Source: a virus. Taken from it: DNA of 56,043 nt. Made by a program: the position numbers and the translations under genes. Positions 14,594 through 55,242 of this stretch are shown piece after piece. The DNA lies in the IMG/VR virus record IMGVR_UViG_3300043395_001804, positions 1-56,043 of that record; one strand, given 5' to 3'. Position 1 is the stretch's first letter. Each line of letters starts with the position of its first letter. The notes beneath the pieces were generated by a model. That model had not been told where the DNA came from, ran no database searches, and worked only from the letters and a program-made list of their open reading frames with translations.

Positions 14594-14614
14594 TGTGCAA
14601 TGTGGAATTTATTA
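14594..14614. repeat. intergenic TGCAATG element, copy 2
   Basis: TGCAATGTGGAATTTATTA; its final TTA doubles as the stop codon of the portal gene on the minus strand, and AGAGGTAT of the next gene follows immediately. Confidence 0.8.
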
Positions 14615-15886
14615 GACGGTTAAGCCGGTGTCTTCTTCAGTCTGACTTACTAGGTCTGTAGTTCCGCCTTTAGGTATTTGATTGATGTTCTGTTCGATCT
14701 CTGCATCCTCAAGAGATACACGTTCAACAGAGTATTTGGTTGTCTGGAAATTTACCAGTACTAGGTATTTGAGTACTTGAATATCAAAGTCGTAAATGAC
14801 TTCATCGGAAAGATGGGCTAGAGTACTGTAGTAGAGCATCATAGGAACTTTACGTCCTGTTGCTGAACCCATAGTGTTATCGCCTTGGGATTCTGCTACT
14901 TCAGGAGGAATGCCTAGAGCTTCTAGGATTTCGTATCGAAGCTCTCTTGGGTACTCCATAAGACCATTTGGAGTGATGTTCGCTGCTGGTGGAGTGTAGG
15001 CCCACTTCTGTTGACCTGATGAAGCGTTAATGTCATCTGGGAAGACTCTGTAGCCACCAGTACGGAGATTAGACATCATACGTACTGCTAGATCGAGATT
15101 ATCGATTTCAGTAGTGCCTACTTTGGTTTTGCCGATTGGGTAACGCATTTCGCCACCATCAAAGGCATTCTTGATAAACCATGTACGTCGAATGTCTCTA
15201 GCTCCATAGCATACGTAGGATTCGTGCCAAGGAATGCTACACCATTCAAGACGAGATTGGCCGTAGGTACTGTTGTGTTTACGGTTATGCAAGTGCCACA
15301 GTACTTTGGGGAACAGAAGGTCTTTCCCGTTTGGATGATCTACGATGCCTTTGATATGAGCACCGACTAGCTTTTGATCTAAGAAGAGTGGACGTACTGA
15401 GTCAGTTGAGTAAAGCTTTAAGTAGTCGTACTGTACTTGCTTTTCTTCATTGACTTTGTAGACAACTTGGTTACATGAGAAGCCCCATTCGATACAGGTT
15501 AGGGCTTCATCGAGTCCACGAGTCCAGAAGCGTTTCAGAGTTTTTAGAATGAACTCTTCAACTTTGGGATCATCAGCGGATACTTTATACATGAAGTTAG
15601 CACCATTGGCTTTTAACAAGTCAATAAGTGCTGGACTCTTACTTTTCTCTGCTGACATAAAGACAGTGTTGTATTGAATTGGGCCTTTGAGCATTTGAAG
15701 GCCGAATCGAATACGTCCATCCCGCATCATTACTGGGATCGTAGTACGGTTGAACATCGGAATGTTATGGCCGTACTGAGGATCGTACAAGGGCAATGGA
15801 GAGTTGTTTGCAATCGTATCAATAGGATTGCTCGCATAGGTGCTGAGCATCTGTTGGACGTTTGATGTTGGCTTTCTATGCGACAT
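14612..15886 (-). CDS. portal protein (DUF935-like)
   Basis: 424 aa. The order RFGLQMLKGPI, a helical 'wing' region with FWTRGLDEALTCIEWGFSC, WHLHNRKHNSTYGQSRLEW, and then YPRELRYEILEALGIPPEVAES with SATGRKVPMMLYY matches Mu gp29-type portals. The portal forms the dodecameric DNA gate of the capsid and docks the terminase. Its place downstream of the tail genes, ~20 kb from the terminase, is unusual. Confidence 0.75.
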   Translation of the reverse strand: MSHRKPTSNVQQMLSTYASNPIDTIANNSPLPLYDPQYGHNIPMFNRTTIPVMMRDGRIRFGLQMLKGPIQYNTVFMSAEKSKSPALIDLLKANGANFMYKVSADDPKVEEFILKTLKRFWTRGLDEALTCIEWGFSCNQVVYKVNEEKQVQYDYLKLYSTDSVRPLFLDQKLVGAHIKGIVDHPNGKDLLFPKVLWHLHNRKHNSTYGQSRLEWCSIPWHESYVCYGARDIRRTWFIKNAFDGGEMRYPIGKTKVGTTEIDNLDLAVRMMSNLRTGGYRVFPDDINASSGQQKWAYTPPAANITPNGLMEYPRELRYEILEALGIPPEVAESQGDNTMGSATGRKVPMMLYYSTLAHLSDEVIYDFDIQVLKYLVLVNFQTTKYSVERVSLEDAEIEQNINQIPKGGTTDLVSQTEEDTGLTV

Positions 15887-15888
15887 AA

Positions 15889-16140
15889 CTATTTGTTCCT
15901 ACTGTTATCGATTGTTTCTTGCATCATCCATCTATCTTGAATCCGTAACGCTGCTTTGTGGTCTTCGAAGGCTGTGTAGTGGATTGCGTAAATGTTAGAA
16001 GCACTGATTACTTCTAACTCTTGTAATCGTTCCCTAGCCTGAAGCATCGGCATCACAAGACTGAGAAGCCTTAGTTGTCTTGCTCCCCATCCTGCGGGGA
16101 GTCCATAGAATCTGACGGACTCAGCGATGGGTAAGACTTT
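15889..16140 (-). CDS. -1 frame extension of the 16071-16403 gene
   Basis: From the A-rich slip site the -1 frame is open for 83 codons, starting KVLPIAESVRFYGLPAGWG and ending in ERLQELEVISASNIYAIHYT and DRWMMQETIDNSRNK. The last part could be read alone from ATG 16053 (54 aa), but it has no clear ribosome-binding site. An -1 event at 16137-16145 would give a 171-residue fusion. The two-frame pattern is that of tail assembly chaperone pairs (gpG/gpGT of lambda). The stop is 2 nt before the portal ATG. Confidence 0.6.
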   Translation of the reverse strand, partial: KVLPIAESVRFYGLPAGWGARQLRLLSLVMPMLQARERLQELEVISASNIYAIHYTAFEDHKAALRIQDRWMMQETIDNSRNK

Positions 16141-16403
16141 TTTTTGATGTCTACCAACATATCGTTGGCTTGAGCATAGAGAGCTAGAGCAACGGATTTG
16201 TGCTTGATGCCGAATCCGTACTTAGACTCTAGCTTGTCTACAACTAAGTCCCAGAAGTCGTCTAAGCCAAGCTTCTCGGATTCGTTGATTGCGTTTTGAC
16301 GAATGAGTACAACGTCAAGACAATCAACCTTGCCAAGAACTTTGTCACCGTCCTTGACTACGATTTCGCATTCTTCATCTGTTGGTAATTGGAATTCTGC
16401 CAT
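16071..16403 (-). CDS. putative tail assembly chaperone, short form
   Basis: 110 aa, acidic, helical (LGLDDFWDLVVDKLESKYGF, VALALYAQANDMLVDIKKK). It follows a large tail protein and carries a slippery A-tract near its end. Short products with a -1 extended partner are typical of tail assembly chaperones that bind the tape-measure protein. The family cannot be named with certainty and the gene is not between tail tube and tape measure as usual, so the role is inferred from the frameshift. Confidence 0.55.
   Translation of the reverse strand: MAEFQLPTDEECEIVVKDGDKVLGKVDCLDVVLIRQNAINESEKLGLDDFWDLVVDKLESKYGFGIKHKSVALALYAQANDMLVDIKKKSYPSLSPSDSMDSPQDGEQDN
16137..16145 (-). promoter_or_regulatory. 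-1 ribosomal frameshift site (A8G)
   Basis: On the minus strand eight A followed by G, read in frame as AAA AAA AAG, is a strong -1 slippery sequence. A 6-bp hairpin CTCCCC/GGGGAG (16083-16101) lies downstream at ~35 nt. Confidence 0.6.
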
Positions 16404-16436: not shown

Positions 16437-18851
16437 CTATGCGTAGTAATTTGCTCTATTGGCTTCAAATGAAATGTTAGCACAAGACGGATCACCTTTC
16501 AAGGCATAGGTAATGTCCCAAACTCCACGGAAGATCGGTAAGTCTGCGGATTTTCCTACTTGATAGCAAGTGTAGTTGCCTTCTCCGACTCTGTAAGCTT
16601 GTATTGTAATTGCTCCACCACCAGAGCCAGTACCGGCGTTTCTACAACCTACTAGGGTTGGACAGGGTACTGGATATCCGACTCGTAGAGCTTGGCCTGT
16701 AAATTGTACATAAGTAGTAACATTTCCGAATACTTGTACGTCACTGTATTCGTAGCCCGATGTTGTTGGCTCTGCATTGTTGTTACCGTTGATGTTGAAT
16801 ACTCTAGCATCCCTGCTTGTAGTTGCTGGTACAGCGGTTGTAGCTCTACTAGCAATAAGCTGCGGTTGAATGCTTGGGAATAGTACGCTGTTCTCATTAC
16901 GTCTTAGTTTGAACTTGGTGTCGTAGGATATCCAGGTTTGAGAAGGATTGACGTTCTTCAGATACGTAGAGTCGTTAGTTGGATCGTAAGACTTGTATGG
17001 TGACGTACTAAAATTTGATGTTGGCAATCCAGGTACGTCTTTCAAAGGAGCGTTACCACCCCATGCCTGATCTATGTTTTCTGGAAAGGGAAAGTTAAGA
17101 TTGCCGAATGTTTCCAAGTGAGCATTACGTCTGCGTTCAGCAAGTGTATGTGTGTTAGCTGAGTCAACATTATCGTAATCGAATGTAGCATTTGAGGATA
17201 CGATACTGCGTTCAGGGTTACGTGGGCCTGCATCATTTGAGAATCTATTTGGATTCCAACCATCGTAAGGGTTGAATACCATATCGTACCCAGGTAGTAG
17301 AGGGCCTCGATAACCAAATACATTCTGGGCATTAGCCATGTATTCGCGTGAGATACCCCATTGATTGCCGTAGCTTTGAGGTATTGCGTTGAATACGTGT
17401 TGCTGATTCGCTACTGTTATTGGCACTTTGCCTAAGTCTGCTGGCAGTACTTGGCCGTTCCATGCAATTGAGACTGGATAGAACAATCCAGTACTTACAA
17501 ACAAAGCGTTCAAGTTGGTAATTACTAGGTACTTGAGTGTGAATGAACATTCACGATTGTAAATGTTTTCTTTGATTGAAATGTTATGCAATAAGTGTCT
17601 ACGTTCTGCTCCCGTAGCTGCTACGTCTTGAATAGCTCCACTTAGAGCATCTTTGGTCTTTAGATTGACTTCATTTTGAAATGGAAGAGTACCGGCCATA
17701 CGTTGACGACATATCGTCATCATTGCTAACCATGCCCATCCTTTCCATACACCAGGACGTACAGTGAATGTACCTTCGAATACGTTGTTCCATGTTAAGA
17801 ATCCAGAGCCTTCGAATACATCGCCACCGAGTAAGCTAGACGATACTGAGTGCGATACGTCTGCTTTGAGGATGTTTGGAAGTATTGGGTTGTCGCTCTT
17901 AATTTCTCTATCGACGATTGTGTATTCGATAGATCGTTTGTTCTTCTTGAATTTGTACTTTTGAGTACGAGTAAAGCCAAGTGGGTGTAGAGGCTCAAAG
18001 TAGTGTGTAAGTACTTGAAGCAATCTTGGAATTGCAGTTGGAGATTCTTTTAAGCGATTGACTAGAGCACCTGTACCTACAAACTCTAGTTCGCCTGTTA
18101 GGGTCATAACGGCTGTACCGTCTTCGTCTATTTCGAACTCTTGTTCTTCAGTATGAGATAGTAAGTAGTTACTTACTTGACCACCTGAGTTACTTTGTTC
18201 GGGTGCAATATCGAAGATAGTATTTATGTAGTTGTTGACAATATCTGTGATTGTCTGAGCACCTGCATAAACTCTAGTTTGTCCTGTAAGTGCTCCTTGT
18301 TCTACAGTTCTTCCACCAAGATTGTTAGAAGTTTGTTGTTCTTGTTCTGGATTATCGAAACTGCCTGATTTGGTTTTGACTGGGCCTGTAGCGATGTTGA
18401 ATACGCATCGCCATTTGCATCGTACTGCGTTGTTGCCAGCTAAAGGTTCCCATGTAAGGACTTCGGGGAATGGGCCTTCGAAGATATTGAATGGTACGTG
18501 TCGTAGAGCGTTATTTACTCCAACTGTGTTGGTTACTGCTCTACCAATTATGTTCATTTCTGTACCCATACCGTGGTAGTACAGTTTCAGTTCTTTGTTC
18601 GGTGCTTGAAGTTCTTCATGGATTTTGTCCATTTGCTTATCAACACCAGTGTACAGAGGATCAGTGACGGTTACTGTCTCTGTAGTGATGATGAAGTCTA
18701 CTTCTAGTGTACATCTTACGTACTTAACTACTAGATTGTCTTCAGTGTAGACGTTCTGTTTGTTAAGTGTTACTTTTGAAAATGCGTGAAATAAGTAGTT
18801 ACCGTATTTGACTTGTTCGTATCGACATACTGGTTGTGGTTCATCTGGCAT
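16437..18851 (-). CDS. large tail-associated protein
   Basis: 804 aa, beta-rich, no enzyme motif. The N-terminal half (YHGMGTEMNIIGRAVTNTV, NIFEGPFPEVLTWEPL, CKWRCVFNI) reads like a structural ring or baseplate-hub protein, and the C-terminal third is Asn/Ser/Thr-rich. It follows the tape measure, the usual place for distal tail or baseplate genes. The gene ends in a 30-nt spacer that is itself a copy of the purine motif and provides AAAAAGG for the next start. Confidence 0.5.
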   Translation of the reverse strand: MPDEPQPVCRYEQVKYGNYLFHAFSKVTLNKQNVYTEDNLVVKYVRCTLEVDFIITTETVTVTDPLYTGVDKQMDKIHEELQAPNKELKLYYHGMGTEMNIIGRAVTNTVGVNNALRHVPFNIFEGPFPEVLTWEPLAGNNAVRCKWRCVFNIATGPVKTKSGSFDNPEQEQQTSNNLGGRTVEQGALTGQTRVYAGAQTITDIVNNYINTIFDIAPEQSNSGGQVSNYLLSHTEEQEFEIDEDGTAVMTLTGELEFVGTGALVNRLKESPTAIPRLLQVLTHYFEPLHPLGFTRTQKYKFKKNKRSIEYTIVDREIKSDNPILPNILKADVSHSVSSSLLGGDVFEGSGFLTWNNVFEGTFTVRPGVWKGWAWLAMMTICRQRMAGTLPFQNEVNLKTKDALSGAIQDVAATGAERRHLLHNISIKENIYNRECSFTLKYLVITNLNALFVSTGLFYPVSIAWNGQVLPADLGKVPITVANQQHVFNAIPQSYGNQWGISREYMANAQNVFGYRGPLLPGYDMVFNPYDGWNPNRFSNDAGPRNPERSIVSSNATFDYDNVDSANTHTLAERRRNAHLETFGNLNFPFPENIDQAWGGNAPLKDVPGLPTSNFSTSPYKSYDPTNDSTYLKNVNPSQTWISYDTKFKLRRNENSVLFPSIQPQLIASRATTAVPATTSRDARVFNINGNNNAEPTTSGYEYSDVQVFGNVTTYVQFTGQALRVGYPVPCPTLVGCRNAGTGSGGGAITIQAYRVGEGNYTCYQVGKSADLPIFRGVWDITYALKGDPSCANISFEANRANYYA

Positions 18852-18879: not shown

Positions 18880-21800
18880 CTATTTTCTAGGATCATTCTT
18901 CATAAACTCTTCTTCGTAATCTGGAAGTTGAGTTGATCTACCAAGTAGCCAATCCAATAAAGTGCTCATACCTTTCGCAATTGTTTGGACACCCTTTGCT
19001 AAAGGTTCAACAAATGCGTACATTAACTTGAATATAAGTGTTCCAAAAATAGTTAGCATTCTCAATAGCATAACGATTATACTTAAAGAATCTACCAGTA
19101 TTTGGATAAGTGGCCCTGCTTGATCGAAAAGGTCTACACCTAAGTTGTACAACTGTCTACTTAATAAGTTAGAAGATTGTTGGTAGTTTGCTAAAGATGC
19201 TCCTCTTGAATTTGCTATCTCCATGTTGTTGACTAAGTTTTTTAACTTATTATCAATGTCTGAAAGTATCAAGTCTGGAGAGAATGCTTCTACATTCTTT
19301 GAAGTGTTATCAGCAATTTCAGCTAAGTAAGAAGCACTTAGAGTAACTCCTGCTACTATTAGACCTACTGGGCCTGCTACTGCTCCTGCTGCTCCTGTTG
19401 CTCCAGAAGCTAGACCCATACTTGCTGCTCCTTGTGCTGCGTATCCGGCTAGCCCAATTGTTGAAGCAGTATTAGAAGCTTGTCCAAAGATTTGACCTGG
19501 GCGTACCCCACTTTTCGTAGATGCTGCTACTAAAGTCTTACCTACTGCGTTTATTGACGCTTCAGCTATTTTGAAGTTCTTGATAGCTTGGATATCAATA
19601 CCCGCATTTTGAGATAGTAGACCAATGTTGGCTCGGCTTGGTGGAATCTCTTCCCCGTCTGGGCCGAATCCTATTGGTGGATTAGTACCACCACCCCCAC
19701 CACCTTTGCCACCTTTTCCTGCGAATGGATCGAAAGCTATATTTAACGGTTGAGGTTCTCTCTCTGGTTTACCATAGAAGTTCTTTGGAGCGTTCTTTGG
19801 TCTAAATGCTTCTGGCTTGAATGTGCCTTGACCTTCTTGGTATGCGGCCATTATCTCTTCAGGGGATAGTTCTGATTCGAATGAAGCTGAAGCCATGAAC
19901 TCTTCGAACTTCTTGTCGTAGGCTATCTTAGCCATAGCGTCTAAGTCACGCTTATTTAGTTTGCCTCTGTTTGTCTCAACATAAGTCTTAGCTGCCTCAA
20001 ATGCTTCTACGTTGGCTAACTCTTTGTACTTCTTAGTAACAAAGGATTTGAATTCACGTTGGAATTGCTTAACTGTTCTATCCTCGTCCTTCTGTTGCAT
20101 TTCAAGTTCTTCGATATCCCGATCAATTTTGCCTTGTGCAAAACCACGAATAGCACTTTCAGGAATCTCAGTACGAATTGACTCTGCTATTTCGCTATAC
20201 GATTGTTGAGTCTTTTCACGTACAGTTTGTACTCTTCTCAGTACTTGGCGTAACAATCCAAGTTTTTCTTGATCTATATTTTCGGATTCTGATACTTTAT
20301 CTATGTAATCCTTAATTCTAGCTTCTAAAGTATTAGACGGATTCTCTAGGTTTGTCCTAAAACTCTTTGCGGAACTTGTTGCAGAAGCTACCTTTTCGTC
20401 CACCAACTTCTGAGTGTCTTCGAAGTCCTTGATTCGCCTACCCGCCTCAAAAGTTCTCTGGAGGGAAGAAGGAAGCGTAGATTCTTTAGCAGTAAATAGC
20501 TTTGATTCAAATGAGCGTTCAAGATTCTCTACTTGTGCTACGAGTACGCGATAGTACTCTTGCTCTGATATGAACCCTTGCATGAATTGATTGTAAGCAT
20601 CTTCGCCATCGTCGCCTTCTCCGTCATCGCCGGTTGGTGGTGCTTTGGGTGTCTTGGGTGGTTTCTTACCTCCACCACCGGACATAGCCTTATTGATGCT
20701 CTCTGCGGCTGATTGTGCAGCTTGCTCTACGTTAGTTACGATTGCATCTTTTAGCTTTTTCTTAGCATCTTTTGTCTTGGTAGCAACTACTGGTTCTGCT
20801 GGTTGACCAGGGGACTCTTGGGTGTAATTGAATAGATTGTCCTTGGCTTCAACTACTGGTTGAACTGCTTGTTCTACTTCTTTAGCTATTGGCTCTGGCT
20901 TTTCTAAAGCATTAGCTATAGATTCAGAAGCAGATGTTTGAGCGTCAACAGTCTTTAGTGGATCGGACACCGGAAATGGAATTTCTCCTTCTGTCTCTCC
21001 AAGAAGACTTGACGGCCATTTTTTTACTCGGTCAAAAGACTTTTGGTCTGATTGCTGATCCCATCGAATCGGCCCGCGAAGTACAACTGGCATTGATGTG
21101 GCTCCAAGATTCTTTAGAGCCATTGCACGATGTCGCCCTTCATGACCAGTAACTTTTGCTTTGCCGGTTTTTTGGTCAATCTCAAATCCTAGATGGGGAA
21201 GGGAACTAAACTTTTCCCCTCTCTCTAAAACTCCAGCAACAGTCTTAGTTTTTTCAGGGGAGATGTCAGCCGCCCCTTCACTTCCAAGTTTTTCTGCCAT
21301 TTGTAAAAATTGATCTGGCTGCATTCTGATTACAGTTAAACGAGACTTGTATTCAGATGCTTCTTGGTTTGCTTTTTCAATAGCTTTTGGGTCGAAGTAA
21401 TCTTCGCCTTTTACTTGTGCTTTTGTTTGTGCATTAGCTACTGAAGTCTCTGGAAAAGAAGATAAATCAGCTTTTGTTTTCTTTGAACGAGACTTTGGCT
21501 TTAGTGTTTCGGTCTGTGCTTGTTCTGTGATTGGAGATTCAGCTTCTACAACTGGAGTTTCTTCAATCGTAGATTGTTGAGTTTGGCTAGTTGACTCTTT
21601 TTCTGTATTAAAGATTAAATCATGTAAGAAACTTAGAGCGTTTACTTGGGTAGGTACGAAACTTAGGGGCTTTACTTGAGAAGGAATCTCTTGAGCTATA
21701 GACTGCTTATGCTGTCTAGCTAGTTCATTGAACTGCTGTATTTCTTTGTTCTGCTTTTCAGATGCTTCCACGCTCTTAGATAGCCTCTTAGTGTTAGCTA

Positions 21801-22407
21801 AGTCTTTACCTTTACGAATAGCTTTTGCTCGTTTATCTCTCTCAGATTCTCCTGCTTCTGTATCTTCGAAGATTTGTTCAGTTACAACTGGAGTTTGTAC
21901 TTGTTCAGTAGTTGGAGCTTGTACAGTCTCAGTACTAGCAGCTAATTGAGCTAATGCGTTCTCTCTTTCTTTCAGTAGAGACTCAAGAGCTTTAGCTACT
22001 CTTTCGTTCATACGTCTTTTATTTTGGTTAGGCTTATTGCGATTCTCTTCAATAGTTTGAAAAGACTTGCCTTTGAAGCCTACACCCTTTTGTACGTAGA
22101 GTGCTCCTTTGGACATTAAAGCTCTTAGTTCTTTACTGATTTTGACTTTAGAAGAGTCTAGCTCAGTAAGTAACTCTTTAGTATTTGCTGCTTTACCTGA
22201 TACGTACTTATCTAGTGCGGATTGCTGAGTCTTTGTCTTTGAGTCAGTTTTAGCTCTTGCTTCAGATTCAGTCTTAGACTTGAGAGCTTCGGTATCTAGC
22301 TTCTCTTGTGCTTTGCTAGGCTTGGACTCGACTTGGTTCTCGTTCTCTGGCTTCTCTGGGTTGTTGTCGCCTTTGAAGTTGATATTGATATCGATTGAGT
22401 TAGCCAT
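18880..22407 (-). CDS. tape-measure-like protein with embedded ParB/sulfiredoxin-like domain
   Basis: 1175 aa. The N-terminal ~250 residues are Lys/Glu/Gln-rich coiled coil. Residues ~345-440 contain LTVIRMQPDQFLQMAE, KAKVTGHEGRHRAMALK and MPVVLRGPI, a pattern of ParB/sulfiredoxin-like domains found in phage-ejected polyvalent proteins. Then come coiled coils (~600-830), a Gly-rich linker, and a C-terminal hydrophobic section (GLASGATGAAGAVAGPVGLI; SLSIIVMLLRMLTIFGTLIF). Length, coiled coils and hydrophobic C-terminus fit a tape measure or ejected internal protein. It follows the tail-tube-like gene. Confidence 0.65.
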   Translation of the reverse strand: MANSIDININFKGDNNPEKPENENQVESKPSKAQEKLDTEALKSKTESEARAKTDSKTKTQQSALDKYVSGKAANTKELLTELDSSKVKISKELRALMSKGALYVQKGVGFKGKSFQTIEENRNKPNQNKRRMNERVAKALESLLKERENALAQLAASTETVQAPTTEQVQTPVVTEQIFEDTEAGESERDKRAKAIRKGKDLANTKRLSKSVEASEKQNKEIQQFNELARQHKQSIAQEIPSQVKPLSFVPTQVNALSFLHDLIFNTEKESTSQTQQSTIEETPVVEAESPITEQAQTETLKPKSRSKKTKADLSSFPETSVANAQTKAQVKGEDYFDPKAIEKANQEASEYKSRLTVIRMQPDQFLQMAEKLGSEGAADISPEKTKTVAGVLERGEKFSSLPHLGFEIDQKTGKAKVTGHEGRHRAMALKNLGATSMPVVLRGPIRWDQQSDQKSFDRVKKWPSSLLGETEGEIPFPVSDPLKTVDAQTSASESIANALEKPEPIAKEVEQAVQPVVEAKDNLFNYTQESPGQPAEPVVATKTKDAKKKLKDAIVTNVEQAAQSAAESINKAMSGGGGKKPPKTPKAPPTGDDGEGDDGEDAYNQFMQGFISEQEYYRVLVAQVENLERSFESKLFTAKESTLPSSLQRTFEAGRRIKDFEDTQKLVDEKVASATSSAKSFRTNLENPSNTLEARIKDYIDKVSESENIDQEKLGLLRQVLRRVQTVREKTQQSYSEIAESIRTEIPESAIRGFAQGKIDRDIEELEMQQKDEDRTVKQFQREFKSFVTKKYKELANVEAFEAAKTYVETNRGKLNKRDLDAMAKIAYDKKFEEFMASASFESELSPEEIMAAYQEGQGTFKPEAFRPKNAPKNFYGKPEREPQPLNIAFDPFAGKGGKGGGGGGTNPPIGFGPDGEEIPPSRANIGLLSQNAGIDIQAIKNFKIAEASINAVGKTLVAASTKSGVRPGQIFGQASNTASTIGLAGYAAQGAASMGLASGATGAAGAVAGPVGLIVAGVTLSASYLAEIADNTSKNVEAFSPDLILSDIDNKLKNLVNNMEIANSRGASLANYQQSSNLLSRQLYNLGVDLFDQAGPLIQILVDSLSIIVMLLRMLTIFGTLIFKLMYAFVEPLAKGVQTIAKGMSTLLDWLLGRSTQLPDYEEEFMKNDPRK

Positions 22408-22506: not shown

Positions 22507-23052
22507 TTACGGAGCTTGAGCAGCTACAGTGTAGTAGCTCATAGCTGCATCGCATGGCGGGAACGATCCAGCAGGATAGCCTGATGGGATAACTCCAGTT
22601 GACCAAGATGGAAGAATGTGCATTGTGATTGGGATTCTTCGCAAGCTTGATGCAAACTTAACCGCAACTGGATCGGTTGCCAGTACTGCTTTACCGAATG
22701 TGATCGAGTTGTACGCTACGTCTGCGGAGGTTCCAGCACAAGGGGTAAGAATCAATGAAGAAGCAAAGCTGCTAATCAGTTGCCCTGCATGACTTTTAAC
22801 TGCCCCGTCTACAATTGGGCTGTTCCCAGACCATCCCCAAATCAAATTGGTGATTGCTGCAAAGTTTGCCTCAGTTAGAACGAATCGAATCGACATATCG
22901 ATACCTTGGTGAACTGCGTCAACAAGTCCTCGATACTGGTCAACTCGGATCTCTTCTTGGATACGATTGAAAGACAGTTCGAAACCATCTTCAGTAGTTC
23001 CAAGTGGTAATGCGTTAAACGTAGCGGAATACGCACCTGCAATGAATGTCAT
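22507..23052 (-). CDS. major tail tube protein-like
   Basis: 181 aa, beta-rich with an N-terminus typical for tube proteins (FIAGAYSATFNALPLGTTEDGFELSFNRIQEEIRVDQY). It lies directly upstream of the tape measure, with a terminator-like hairpin after it, as for highly expressed tail tubes. No other domain is visible. Assignment by place, size and fold character. Confidence 0.65.
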   Translation of the reverse strand: MTFIAGAYSATFNALPLGTTEDGFELSFNRIQEEIRVDQYRGLVDAVHQGIDMSIRFVLTEANFAAITNLIWGWSGNSPIVDGAVKSHAGQLISSFASSLILTPCAGTSADVAYNSITFGKAVLATDPVAVKFASSLRRIPITMHILPSWSTGVIPSGYPAGSFPPCDAAMSYYTVAAQAP

Positions 23053-23612
23053 AGTGTCCTAAGCTCCTGTTCCAATTGTAGTTGGTTTCTAACGGTTTTG
23101 CGTTGTTTGAGCATTGTACTGAACTCTTGAATCTTTGTCAAAAGTTTGTCAATGTCCTCAACACTGGTTGGGATATCGGATGTTGGCAACTCTTTCTTGA
23201 TCCCTTCGATCTGTGCCTTGAACGAGTTTTGGGGATCTTCTTCGTCCTCAAAGTCAACGGTTTTCATAAACTCTTCAAGAGAGCCTAGCTCCTGCCTAGC
23301 CAAGTTCGTCTTTTGATTCGACTCCAACCATTGATTGCATTTGTAGCACGTAGATGCTTCTGGGTATGTCGTAACAACTCTTGCTTTTGACGAAGAATTA
23401 CAAGCTGTTACCCATTCCTGTCCTGGGGTCATCTTCAAAGCAAAACTGGTTCCGTTCTTGCTGTAAAGTTTATGAGTGGGTGCTTGCTCTTTTGGGAGCA
23501 GCAAGCAAATACTAACTAACTGAGTCATTACCGCACTTTCGCAGCATTCAGCCAGTCGTTGGGACGGGTGGTAAGTGTCTTTGTTGCACTTCGAACATCG
23601 GAATTTGAACAT
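23049..23612 (-). CDS. zinc-ribbon protein in neck/tail module
   Basis: About 187 aa from ATG 23612 (MFKFRCSKCNKDTYHP), preceded by AGAAGGA. Two Cys pairs are visible: CSKC near the N-terminus with ECC, and CYKCNQWL around residue 85. The C-terminal half is acidic and helical (DIDKLLTKIQEFSTMLKQRK). Overlaps the tail-tube start by 4 nt. Function unknown; may be a chaperone or tail completion factor. Confidence 0.6.
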   Translation of the reverse strand: MFKFRCSKCNKDTYHPSQRLAECCESAVMTQLVSICLLLPKEQAPTHKLYSKNGTSFALKMTPGQEWVTACNSSSKARVVTTYPEASTCYKCNQWLESNQKTNLARQELGSLEEFMKTVDFEDEEDPQNSFKAQIEGIKKELPTSDIPTSVEDIDKLLTKIQEFSTMLKQRKTVRNQLQLEQELRTL

Positions 23613-23626
23613 GAGGCATATCCTTC

Positions 23627-23682
23627 TATGCAATGTGGAATTTATTACGGTCGGCAACTAGCTAATAAATTCAGCATTGCAC
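23627..23682. repeat. paired TGCAATG elements forming a hairpin
   Basis: Two TGCAATG elements face each other (23627-23647 and, inverted, 23663-23682) with a 15-nt spacer. Together they form a long stem (about 18 of 20 positions match). The inverted copy overlaps the 3' end of the 23671-24279 gene. Confidence 0.8.
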
Positions 23683-25416: not shown

Positions 25417-26589
25417 TTACAATCCACTTCGCCAGACGTTAGCCCAAATAACAGCTTGTGGCTGTGGAAGGATTGGAACGTAGTTCAGAAGCATCTTGAT
25501 ATCGAACCGTGGAGGATCGATTTCGCGGGTACGCCACTGATACAATCCAGTAACCGTCTTGACTTCGCTCATGACGTTCTCTGCGACTGGTTCCATGCAA
25601 GTACCGAAGCCTACCCAATCTCCAGGGGGAGGAACGATCAGAGCATATCCATCTGGAATCAAAGCACTCCAGTTAGACACACTGACTTGATTGGCGTAGT
25701 CAGGTACAACATTGTTGAGTACAAGACCTTCATTGTAGATATGAAAATTGTACTGTGGCAATGCTCGGAACTGAACCGTGTATGGGCCACTGGTTGGAGG
25801 CTCGTCACCACGAACTTCACGGTTGGTAAGGCTATCGAAGATACGGTAAGCCGTACCACCGACCTTAGCCAACTGGGTGTTGTTGAACAGGTGCTTTCCA
25901 GTGTTCCCGTTCATGATGATATCAGTAGGCTGATAACCGCTAACACGAGCAGCTTGCACACTGATTTCGTTCAGGTGATCGAGAATAGGAGCAGCAGGAT
26001 CGTTCCATGCTTCACCAGCACCGATGATGCCACCAAGATCGCCTTTGTTGCTAGCCGGAATGAGGTACTCATTCTTGTGGATAGCATTCGCATCGGTCAG
26101 TTCGCAGAGTCGGAACGCTTCACCGTCTTGCTTGATACCGAAGCCACCTTGGAACATCTTAGCAACCATCCATTCAACGGAGTTGGTTACTTGAGTCTTC
26201 AGGTGCTTCATCTGCATAGCGATGTAGCGTTGTCCAGTAGCATCGACTTTGGTATTCAAACCAAAGCTACCAAGTTGACGGGTCATGAAGACCTTTTCAT
26301 CAGCAATGGTAGTCTTGATGTTGGTTCGGAATACTGCGGCCATTGCAGTACCAACAGGCTTTTGGCCTACGGATACTGGTGGAGCCATTGGAGCAGTCAT
26401 CGGAGCCAGTGTACGAGTATTGGCTACTAGATCGTAACCGAAGACACGTTGCTGACTTGCAATGACTGGGGTATCAGTTGGTGCAAGCTTAAAGTATCGT
26501 TGAAAGAACGATGCTGATGTATGCAGTTGCTCGTAAAGTCGAGCAATCTGTGGTACTCGCATCAACTGATCGTAGGACATTCCTGGCAT
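25417..26589 (-). CDS. major capsid protein
   Basis: 390 aa. The sequence FGYDLVANTRTLAPMTAPMAPP, long alpha/beta sections and the place after protease and decoration genes identify an HK97-fold major capsid protein, probably of the capsid-E-like group. NIKTTIADEKVFMTRQLGS fits the spine and E-loop region. There is no obvious delta domain; scaffolding is likely supplied by the upstream protease gene product. Confidence 0.8.
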   Translation of the reverse strand: MPGMSYDQLMRVPQIARLYEQLHTSASFFQRYFKLAPTDTPVIASQQRVFGYDLVANTRTLAPMTAPMAPPVSVGQKPVGTAMAAVFRTNIKTTIADEKVFMTRQLGSFGLNTKVDATGQRYIAMQMKHLKTQVTNSVEWMVAKMFQGGFGIKQDGEAFRLCELTDANAIHKNEYLIPASNKGDLGGIIGAGEAWNDPAAPILDHLNEISVQAARVSGYQPTDIIMNGNTGKHLFNNTQLAKVGGTAYRIFDSLTNREVRGDEPPTSGPYTVQFRALPQYNFHIYNEGLVLNNVVPDYANQVSVSNWSALIPDGYALIVPPPGDWVGFGTCMEPVAENVMSEVKTVTGLYQWRTREIDPPRFDIKMLLNYVPILPQPQAVIWANVWRSGL

Positions 26590-35047: not shown

Positions 35048-36511
35048 CTAGAGAAAGAAACCGGAATCGTTGAAAGACTTTGGATAGCCAAGGTTCATCT
35101 GTAGCAGTTGAGGTACGTAGGCATTTAGTGAGTCTGCCGATACGGAATTCGCCTGAAACATAGGATCGTAACCTTGACCTTCCCAGGTAACATCATTGCA
35201 AGCATCGGAAAGTGTGTCAACAATATCATCTGTCATACCTGGATGTCCAGTCCAGGTAAATACTTCGTCCATGCACTCTTTGAGCCATGCTGCTTCTTCA
35301 GGTAAGTAAATGCGATTGTTACGCATTCGAAGTTGAGCATTCAAAGAATTTTGGATTTTATCTTTAGCTTTCGGGTTGGGTACTACGTTAAGACCGTAGT
35401 TAGCTGCTAACTGGGCAGGGCCGATACCTAGACCGTTAGTCTCCATTTTGACGTATTGAGGTTTCCATACTTTATAGATATCGCATAGAACCTTAACGCA
35501 TTCTGGAATTTCAGCACGCATACGCTTCATGTAGAGCCATAGTAGCTTGTAGTCATGAGTAAGACCCCAAACAGAATAGACTGTATGGGACATACCGTTA
35601 CGTGTTGTAGACTGATCGATGATGCCTTCTTTGACTGTTGCAGCAGAGTCAGCAGTCATGAAGACTTTCTTCAAGTCTTTGTAGTGAATACCTATTTCGT
35701 TGATAACGAAGTACTCGCCTTTGGATTTATAGAATCTAACGTCTTGGACTCTGAAGCGTGAATCAGGAGAAGCGTCCCAATCGCCATGCTCTAATTGAAG
35801 CTTACGTACTTCATCTAGTTCTTGGAGAGATTGACGATACGATCTTTGATCGATGTATTCGTTATCTCGTAAAGAAGACGGTACGAATGGTTTGTTAGGA
35901 TTACGACCTACCCAACGAATACGCTTAGAAACAGCCTTAGTTTCGTGGTCTACTACATCGTAAAGTTCTTTCTCAATTTGGTATCTATTCTTTATCCAGA
36001 GGTGTCCTGGGCCGCCTGGGTTACACGACATTCGAAAGCGAATAGGAATAGACTTATACATTTGACAGATGCTACAGTTATCCATGTAGTTTGGAACCAT
36101 TTCACCGCTTTTAGGATCTTTCTTTAGCTTGTGCTTTGGACAGACCTTTTTACGAAGACGGGAAAAGAGATATCTAGGAGCTTGGTCGTTTTCAAAGTGT
36201 CCAGCTTCGTCGATTGCAGCAAATTGGAATTCTGCCCCTTGGTAGCGTTCTTCAACTCGGTAATCACCAAGATAGCCGAACTGAAGCTTCGCGTAAGGGC
36301 CAGGAGTTCCATCAGGCCAAGTCGTATCGAAGTAGTACGTATGTTCGTCTGGTGAGTAATGGGCGGTTTTAACGCCACGTAGCCACTGAGAAGCACGATC
36401 CAATAGAGCTTCGTTCTGCTTCAACTCTACGAGAGTTCGACGAAGGATTAGAGCAGAGTACCCAGGGGTATCTGCAAACTGCAATGCTGCCATTAGGAGA
36501 ACGTCTGATTT
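35048..36511 (-). CDS. terL: large terminase subunit, 3' segment (from Walker A Lys)
   Basis: 487 codons reading KSDVLLMAALQFADTPGYSA then ILRRTLVELKQNE. Walker B is FQFAAIDEAGHFE, the coupling motif is RMSCNPGGPGHLW, and the nuclease domain starts at VFMTADSAATV with a later acidic site DDIVDTLSDACND. It drives DNA packaging with the portal. The segment lacks its own P-loop glycines: those are in the 36579-36692 segment in another frame, 67 nt upstream. The first in-frame ATG (36493) follows the catalytic Lys and has no good ribosome-binding site, so independent translation would give an inactive ATPase. Confidence 0.92.
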   Translation of the reverse strand, partial: KSDVLLMAALQFADTPGYSALILRRTLVELKQNEALLDRASQWLRGVKTAHYSPDEHTYYFDTTWPDGTPGPYAKLQFGYLGDYRVEERYQGAEFQFAAIDEAGHFENDQAPRYLFSRLRKKVCPKHKLKKDPKSGEMVPNYMDNCSICQMYKSIPIRFRMSCNPGGPGHLWIKNRYQIEKELYDVVDHETKAVSKRIRWVGRNPNKPFVPSSLRDNEYIDQRSYRQSLQELDEVRKLQLEHGDWDASPDSRFRVQDVRFYKSKGEYFVINEIGIHYKDLKKVFMTADSAATVKEGIIDQSTTRNGMSHTVYSVWGLTHDYKLLWLYMKRMRAEIPECVKVLCDIYKVWKPQYVKMETNGLGIGPAQLAANYGLNVVPNPKAKDKIQNSLNAQLRMRNNRIYLPEEAAWLKECMDEVFTWTGHPGMTDDIVDTLSDACNDVTWEGQGYDPMFQANSVSADSLNAYVPQLLQMNLGYPKSFNDSGFFL

Positions 36512-52718: not shown

Positions 52719-52723
52719 CTTAG

Positions 52724-52797
52724 CTTGCCTGACCGGAGTTGAACCGGCAACTACACTTTAGAAGGGTGTTGCTTTTCCTGGATTAAGCTACAGGCAA
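52724..52797 (-). tRNA. tRNA-Arg (TCT)
   Basis: 74 nt. Acceptor TTGCCTG/CAGGCAA, D arm GCTT/AAGC, anticodon arm ACACC-CTTCTAA-AGTGT (U33, anticodon TCT at 52760-52762), T arm GCCGG-TTCAACT-CCGGT, discriminator G, no encoded CCA. The lowest anticodon-stem pair is a C-A mismatch. Decodes AGA (and AGG), codons that the phage uses. Confidence 0.8.
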
Positions 52798-54726: not shown

Positions 54727-55242
54727 TTATTTCTTACGTCTTGAAGAGTTTGTTCGGTTGGACTGTCCTTCCGATTGTCCCTTCTGTTTCGCTCGCCATG
54801 CTCGCTTACGTATGGCTGCCGGTGTCTGACTATACTCTCTCGGTTTGGATTTGGCAACTGACTTTTTACTACCAGTTGATGAATTCTTGGATTTTTTTGT
54901 TGTGGTCTTTTTTGGGCCTTTACTACCGAACAATGAACGGCCTTTCTTTGACTTGCTTACGTTTACTATCTTTGGGCCTTGATTGATCTTAACTGCTTTC
55001 GCTCGGCTTGCTGGCTTCTTAACTCGGCGGCCTCTGATACGTTGTATCTCTTTCTGGTCGCGGCCTTGTTTCTTTGCTTGCTCTGCTTGTAACTCTCTAG
55101 CTGATTTGCTTTCTTGCTCTTGAGCTAGTTGTCGATTAGTTTCTTTTATGCCTTTGCCTTTCTTCTTGGTCTTACCTTTTCGACCTTTAGCATTGTAGCC
55201 TTTAGCTACGTCTAGCTTTACACGTACATTTGAAGTTGCCAT
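54727..55242 (-). CDS. highly basic histone-like protein
   Basis: 171 aa, dominated by Lys, Arg, Ser, Gln (KGRKGKTKKKGKGIKETNRQ; KSKNSSTGSKKSVAKSKPRE). Low complexity with no fold evident except a helix (AAIRKRAWRAKQKG). Likely binds phage or host DNA. Third member of a basic-protein cluster. Confidence 0.6.
   Translation of the reverse strand: MATSNVRVKLDVAKGYNAKGRKGKTKKKGKGIKETNRQLAQEQESKSARELQAEQAKKQGRDQKEIQRIRGRRVKKPASRAKAVKINQGPKIVNVSKSKKGRSLFGSKGPKKTTTKKSKNSSTGSKKSVAKSKPREYSQTPAAIRKRAWRAKQKGQSEGQSNRTNSSRRKK

Follow-up and report, generated by a model that had tools for sequence, protein, structure and literature searches.

In a virus contig from IMG/VR (56,043 bases, the window analysed here; positions are given on the whole stretch), two overlapping reading frames lie on the minus strand directly upstream of the gene for the Mu-type portal protein (PF06074; 14612..15886, minus strand), and a programmed -1 frameshift is predicted to join them. 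The zero-frame open reading frame (ORF; 16071..16403) encodes a G-like short product of 110 amino acids (aa), which shares its first 89 residues, as far as the slip, with the fusion. Its codons 87-89 read AAA AAA AAG (A8G, 16145..16137) and contain the in-phase heptamer A AAA AAG (16143..16137). From the slip, the -1 frame (15889..16137, minus strand) runs over 82 sense codons to a TAG (15891..15889), 2 nucleotides (nt) short of the portal ATG (15886), and would add a T-like domain with four predicted helices, giving a fusion of 171 aa. The sequence-only reading of this DNA had described the A run at these codons of a 110-aa gene, an open -1 frame ending 2 nt before the portal start and a 171-residue fusion; its coordinates and numbers hold on the minus strand. 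The in-frame heptamer A AAA AA(A/G) occurs 5 times in the 15,329 codons of the window, and only at this occurrence is the -1 frame open over a long distance (84 codons, against 4-26 codons at the other four). Separately, a 171-aa ORF at 54727-55242 carries three in-phase slippery heptamers clustered at codons 110-116, with a -1 frame that closes within 9-15 codons.

Conservation of the slip site and of the -1 frame

Relatives were collected by portal-based scans of IMG/VR, which yielded nine contigs (L003-L008, L024, L025 and L026) with about 43-89% portal identity, ten contigs including the window. A homologous pair is found directly upstream of the portal gene in all of them, and an in-phase A AAA AA(A/G) heptamer stands at the homologous place in 10/10, conserving a canonical X XXY YYZ slip. 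The site reads AAA AAA AAA in L003-L008 and L025, and AAA AAA AAG in L026 and the window. In L024 it is CGA AAA AAA T, which has only seven A's (A7) and still forms an exactly in-phase A AAA AAA heptamer. Across the ten contigs the first products measure 105-119 aa and the fusions 168-174 aa; the fusions can be aligned end to end among relatives, and the short product is acidic in the contigs compared (isoelectric point 4.2-4.9). Three further contigs from a DNA pattern scan (L011, L016 and L017) were discarded as chance matches lacking homologous context. With the fusion as query, no viral contig was found, the scan being poorly suited to a junction peptide that is not contiguous in DNA, and no record was found in the phage collection. 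Two portal-profile scans of bacterial and archaeal genomes gave no match, so that no host or prophage was identified.

We then compared selection on the two frames by pairwise ratios of non-synonymous to synonymous substitution rates (dN/dS, Nei-Gojobori). The zero frame is under purifying selection up to the slip, and the -1 frame from the slip onward. In the overlap past the slip, which spans only 16-22 codons so that single values are rough, it is the -1 frame that shows conservation (dN/dS about 0.1-0.2), and not the zero frame. Between the window and L003, dN and dS are 0.065 and 0.572 in the -1 frame and 0.183 and 0.076 in the zero frame; the corresponding values are 0.185 and 0.901 versus 0.345 and 0.201 for the window and L004, and 0.21 and 2.73 versus 0.498 and 0.266 for L007 and L008. 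The informative pairs listed point the same way, apart from the window against L007 and L008, where the zero-frame ratio is near 0.4 and 1. Alignment scores agree with this picture: over its first 21 residues the -1 frame gives z values of 10-19 against L003-L008 and L024, while the similarity of the zero-frame tail past the slip is about 0 (z) in L007 and L008. The L025 sequence has diverged over these residues (z 0.7), although its extension as a whole is still homologous (z 12). Good coding sequence had been noted after 16053 in the sequence-only reading; the -1 frame is in fact conserved from the slip itself (16137) onward.

The -1 frame of L024 contains no ATG, GTG or TTG anywhere, and in L004 and L005 its first start codon comes 201 nt past the slip. 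Because homology in this frame begins at the slip in spite of this, the extension must arise by a change of frame there or close by. If the -1 frame were instead a separate gene, candidate codons for an internal start would exist in the window, where GTG and ATG lie 87-96 nt past the slip, accompanied by a weak Shine-Dalgarno-like stretch, and in L025, where an ATG overlaps the A run. However, conserved residues begin upstream of the window codons, the L025 ATG has no Shine-Dalgarno sequence, L024 offers no start codon at all, and L004 and L005 offer none for 200 nt. On the start-codon survey together with the frame-specific selection, we rejected an independent start, which appears extremely improbable. 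Relatives lacking the slip site and having a clear independent start for the second frame had been named beforehand as the observation that would speak against a frameshift, and slip-site conservation as a check: none of the nine relatives has lost the in-phase slip, and the opposite of the adverse case was found. A programmed -1 frameshift conserved across the clade is thus strongly supported by these sequence comparisons.

The same fusion could also result if RNA polymerase slipped on the run of A's and added one A, and seven of the ten contigs carry nine consecutive A's, long enough for transcriptional slippage. Against this, the window and L026 have only A8G, and L024 has no more than A7, yet in exactly the phase that two tRNAs need. 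Since such runs are short for transcriptional slippage yet suit two tRNA-Lys slipping together, the comparison favours the ribosome over the polymerase, whose involvement we consider improbable. Downstream of the slip, a 6-bp stem GAGTCC/GGACTC with a 12-nt loop (16122..16099, minus strand) starts after 14 nt and is a possible stimulator in close kin only. The window, L003 and L006 have the full stem, L004 retains part of it and shows a single compensatory change, and in the other contigs the stem is disrupted. No consensus structure was found downstream of the slip among the contigs, and Rfam returned nothing credible at the slip site. The hairpin pointed out in the sequence-only reading therefore exists in the window, but as a conserved stimulator for the clade it was rejected, its stem being broken in divergent relatives.

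Candidate tail assembly chaperones

In long-tailed phages, a -1 frameshifted pair in the tail operon is a tail assembly chaperone (PMC5009743), recognised by overlapping frames and a location ahead of the tape measure gene (PMC2147016, PMC3706429). The pair studied here resembles such chaperones in its size, its acidic first product, the -1 slip near its 3' end, its helical extension and its location in the tail operon, and no other candidate lies between the tube and tape measure genes. On these grounds we consider it likely that the two products are tail assembly chaperones working in the manner of lambda G/GT. Most ribosomes would then make the acidic 110-aa protein, and a minority would shift back by one base at A AAA AAG to make the 171-aa fusion with its helical C-terminal domain. 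By analogy with lambda gpG/gpGT, the shared N-terminal part may coat the tape measure protein, and recruitment of tube subunits may fall to the extension. AlphaFold2 models the 110-aa product with a confidence score (pLDDT) of 86: residues 1-90 are predicted with high confidence as a β-hairpin and three helices, and the tail past the slip is disordered. The extension is predicted to be all-helical with moderate confidence.

Several observations weigh against this assignment. Neither half matches any entry in Pfam, PHROGs, PDB sequences, BFVD or Foldseek searches, and the profiles of the lambda and HK97 chaperone families (Phage_TAC_2, Phage_TAC_1 and other Phage_TAC_* profiles) match neither half. 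As positive controls, lambda G and HK97 gp13 each matched their own Pfam TAC family, and HK97 gp13 is present in the PDB as 2ob9. In the Foldseek search with the zero-frame model, no match reached E ≤ 0.001, and 2ob9, which the PDB contains, was not among the best 50 of 59 matches. The model also begins with a β-hairpin, whereas lambda G was described as consisting mainly of four helices (PMC2147016). Lastly, the pair does not lie between the tube and tape measure genes but follows both the tape measure gene and the ~800-aa gene in 10/10 contigs. The chaperone role is assigned because the overlap of frames is present and the usual place holds no other pair, though the position differs. The match to tail chaperones made in the sequence-only reading is thus supported by anatomy, and finds no support in sequence or fold homology; the family is probably a sequence-orphan tail chaperone.

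The main alternative accepts the frameshift but gives the pair a role in head or portal assembly, as a portal chaperone, connector or scaffold factor. It draws on the constant place of the pair directly upstream of the portal gene, with the -1 stop in each of the ten contigs falling -16 to +2 nt from the start of that gene, and on the absence of homology to known tail chaperones noted above. Yet the pair comes after tail genes, such a role would leave the tail without an alternative chaperone candidate between tube and tape measure, and a short and a long product linked by a -1 slip are the hallmark of the tail chaperones of long-tailed phages (PMC5009743). We therefore judge a head or portal role unlikely, and retain the tail chaperone assignment.

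Among known systems, the phage lambda gpG/gpGT pair (PF06894, Phage_TAC_2) likewise has an extension that ends where the next gene starts, lambda T overlapping H by 8 nt. It shares no sequence similarity with the present pair, and its downstream partner is the tape measure gene (H), not the portal gene. The slip in lambda is G GGA AAG, unlike the A AAA AAR found here. HK97 gp13 (PF06222, Phage_TAC_1; 2ob9) is comparable in size (128 aa, against 110 here) and in having an annotated -1 frameshift fusion; it gives no profile match to the present pair, and the HK97 pair precedes the tape measure gene. The phiCbK-like chaperones slip by -1 on a comparable A-rich heptamer, AAAAAAC (PMC3556154), and differ in lying before the tape measure gene. 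A non-canonical form of tail chaperone is also known from orfs 143/144 of Bacillus phage 0305phi8-36 (PMC2147016): these two genes lack a frameshift and precede the tape measure gene, whereas the present pair is frameshifted and downstream.

Gene order and the displaced position

Identification of tail chaperones relies mainly on their location ahead of the tape measure gene. In all relatives the operon order is tube, tape measure, ~800-aa protein, frameshift pair and portal, with the tape measure directly after the tube. In the window, all on the minus strand, a probable tail tube gene (181 aa, 22507..23052) ends 99 nt before the tape measure gene (1175 aa, 18880..22407), and the gap holds no chaperone ORF. 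The tape measure label is supported by the orthologues in L008 and L024, which match tape-measure PHROGs; the tube label is weaker, with one match to phrog_2175 'protein with Ig domain' (1.9e-5) and the position. Between the tape measure gene and the pair lies the gene for a conserved 804-aa protein (16437..18851), putatively of the tail tip or distal tail, which has no family match in Pfam and PHROGs searches and is a conserved neighbour in all relatives. The unusual position of the pair, after the distal tail gene and before the portal, had already been remarked in the sequence-only reading; it is real and conserved in all ten contigs. In the proposed scheme, the gene would have moved along with the portal from the usual site before the tape measure to its place after the ~800-aa tail gene. 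We found no description of a tail chaperone after the tape measure gene in the literature covered, from which most subscription journals are absent. The displaced position is the real novelty, the programmed-frameshift type of chaperone being already known. A clade with the pair downstream, beside a relocated portal, would mean that a place before the tape measure is not obligatory and that annotation based on position will miss such displaced chaperone genes; the sequence-orphan family is worth testing.

The distances from the -1 stop to the portal start are +2, +2, -1, -1, +2, +1, +2, -16, -4 and -4 nt in the ten contigs. Ribosomes reach this stop only by shifting, and the stop touches the portal start in 10/10, which raises the idea that the shift rate may also set the amount of portal by termination-reinitiation. 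One slip site would then dose both the chaperone fusion and the low-copy portal ring. This is a doubtful proposal: the portal starts carry modest Shine-Dalgarno matches of their own, so that coupling is possible without being required. The abutting portal start makes it directly testable.

The portal gene itself (14612-15886) stands after the tail genes and not between the terminase (35048-36493) and major capsid (25417-26589) genes, and this displacement is conserved in all relatives with context to compare. Homologues of the tape measure range from about 549 aa (L026) to the 1175 aa of the window (18880-22407) in a single syntenic clade, which implies tails of widely differing length. In the L026 contig (G009, C1:27859-30102, minus strand), the match to the large terminase is split into query segments 1-104 and 93-449, about 880 nt apart, by an in-frame insert in one stop-free 821-aa frame, possibly an intein. 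Between a tail-terminator-like gene and the tube gene of the window, 23049-23657 encodes a protein with paired CxxC motifs (zinc-ribbon-like) whose translation, judging by the relatives, seems to begin about 15 codons further downstream than the listed TTG. A tRNA-Arg gene with anticodon TCT lies at 52723-52797 on the minus strand.
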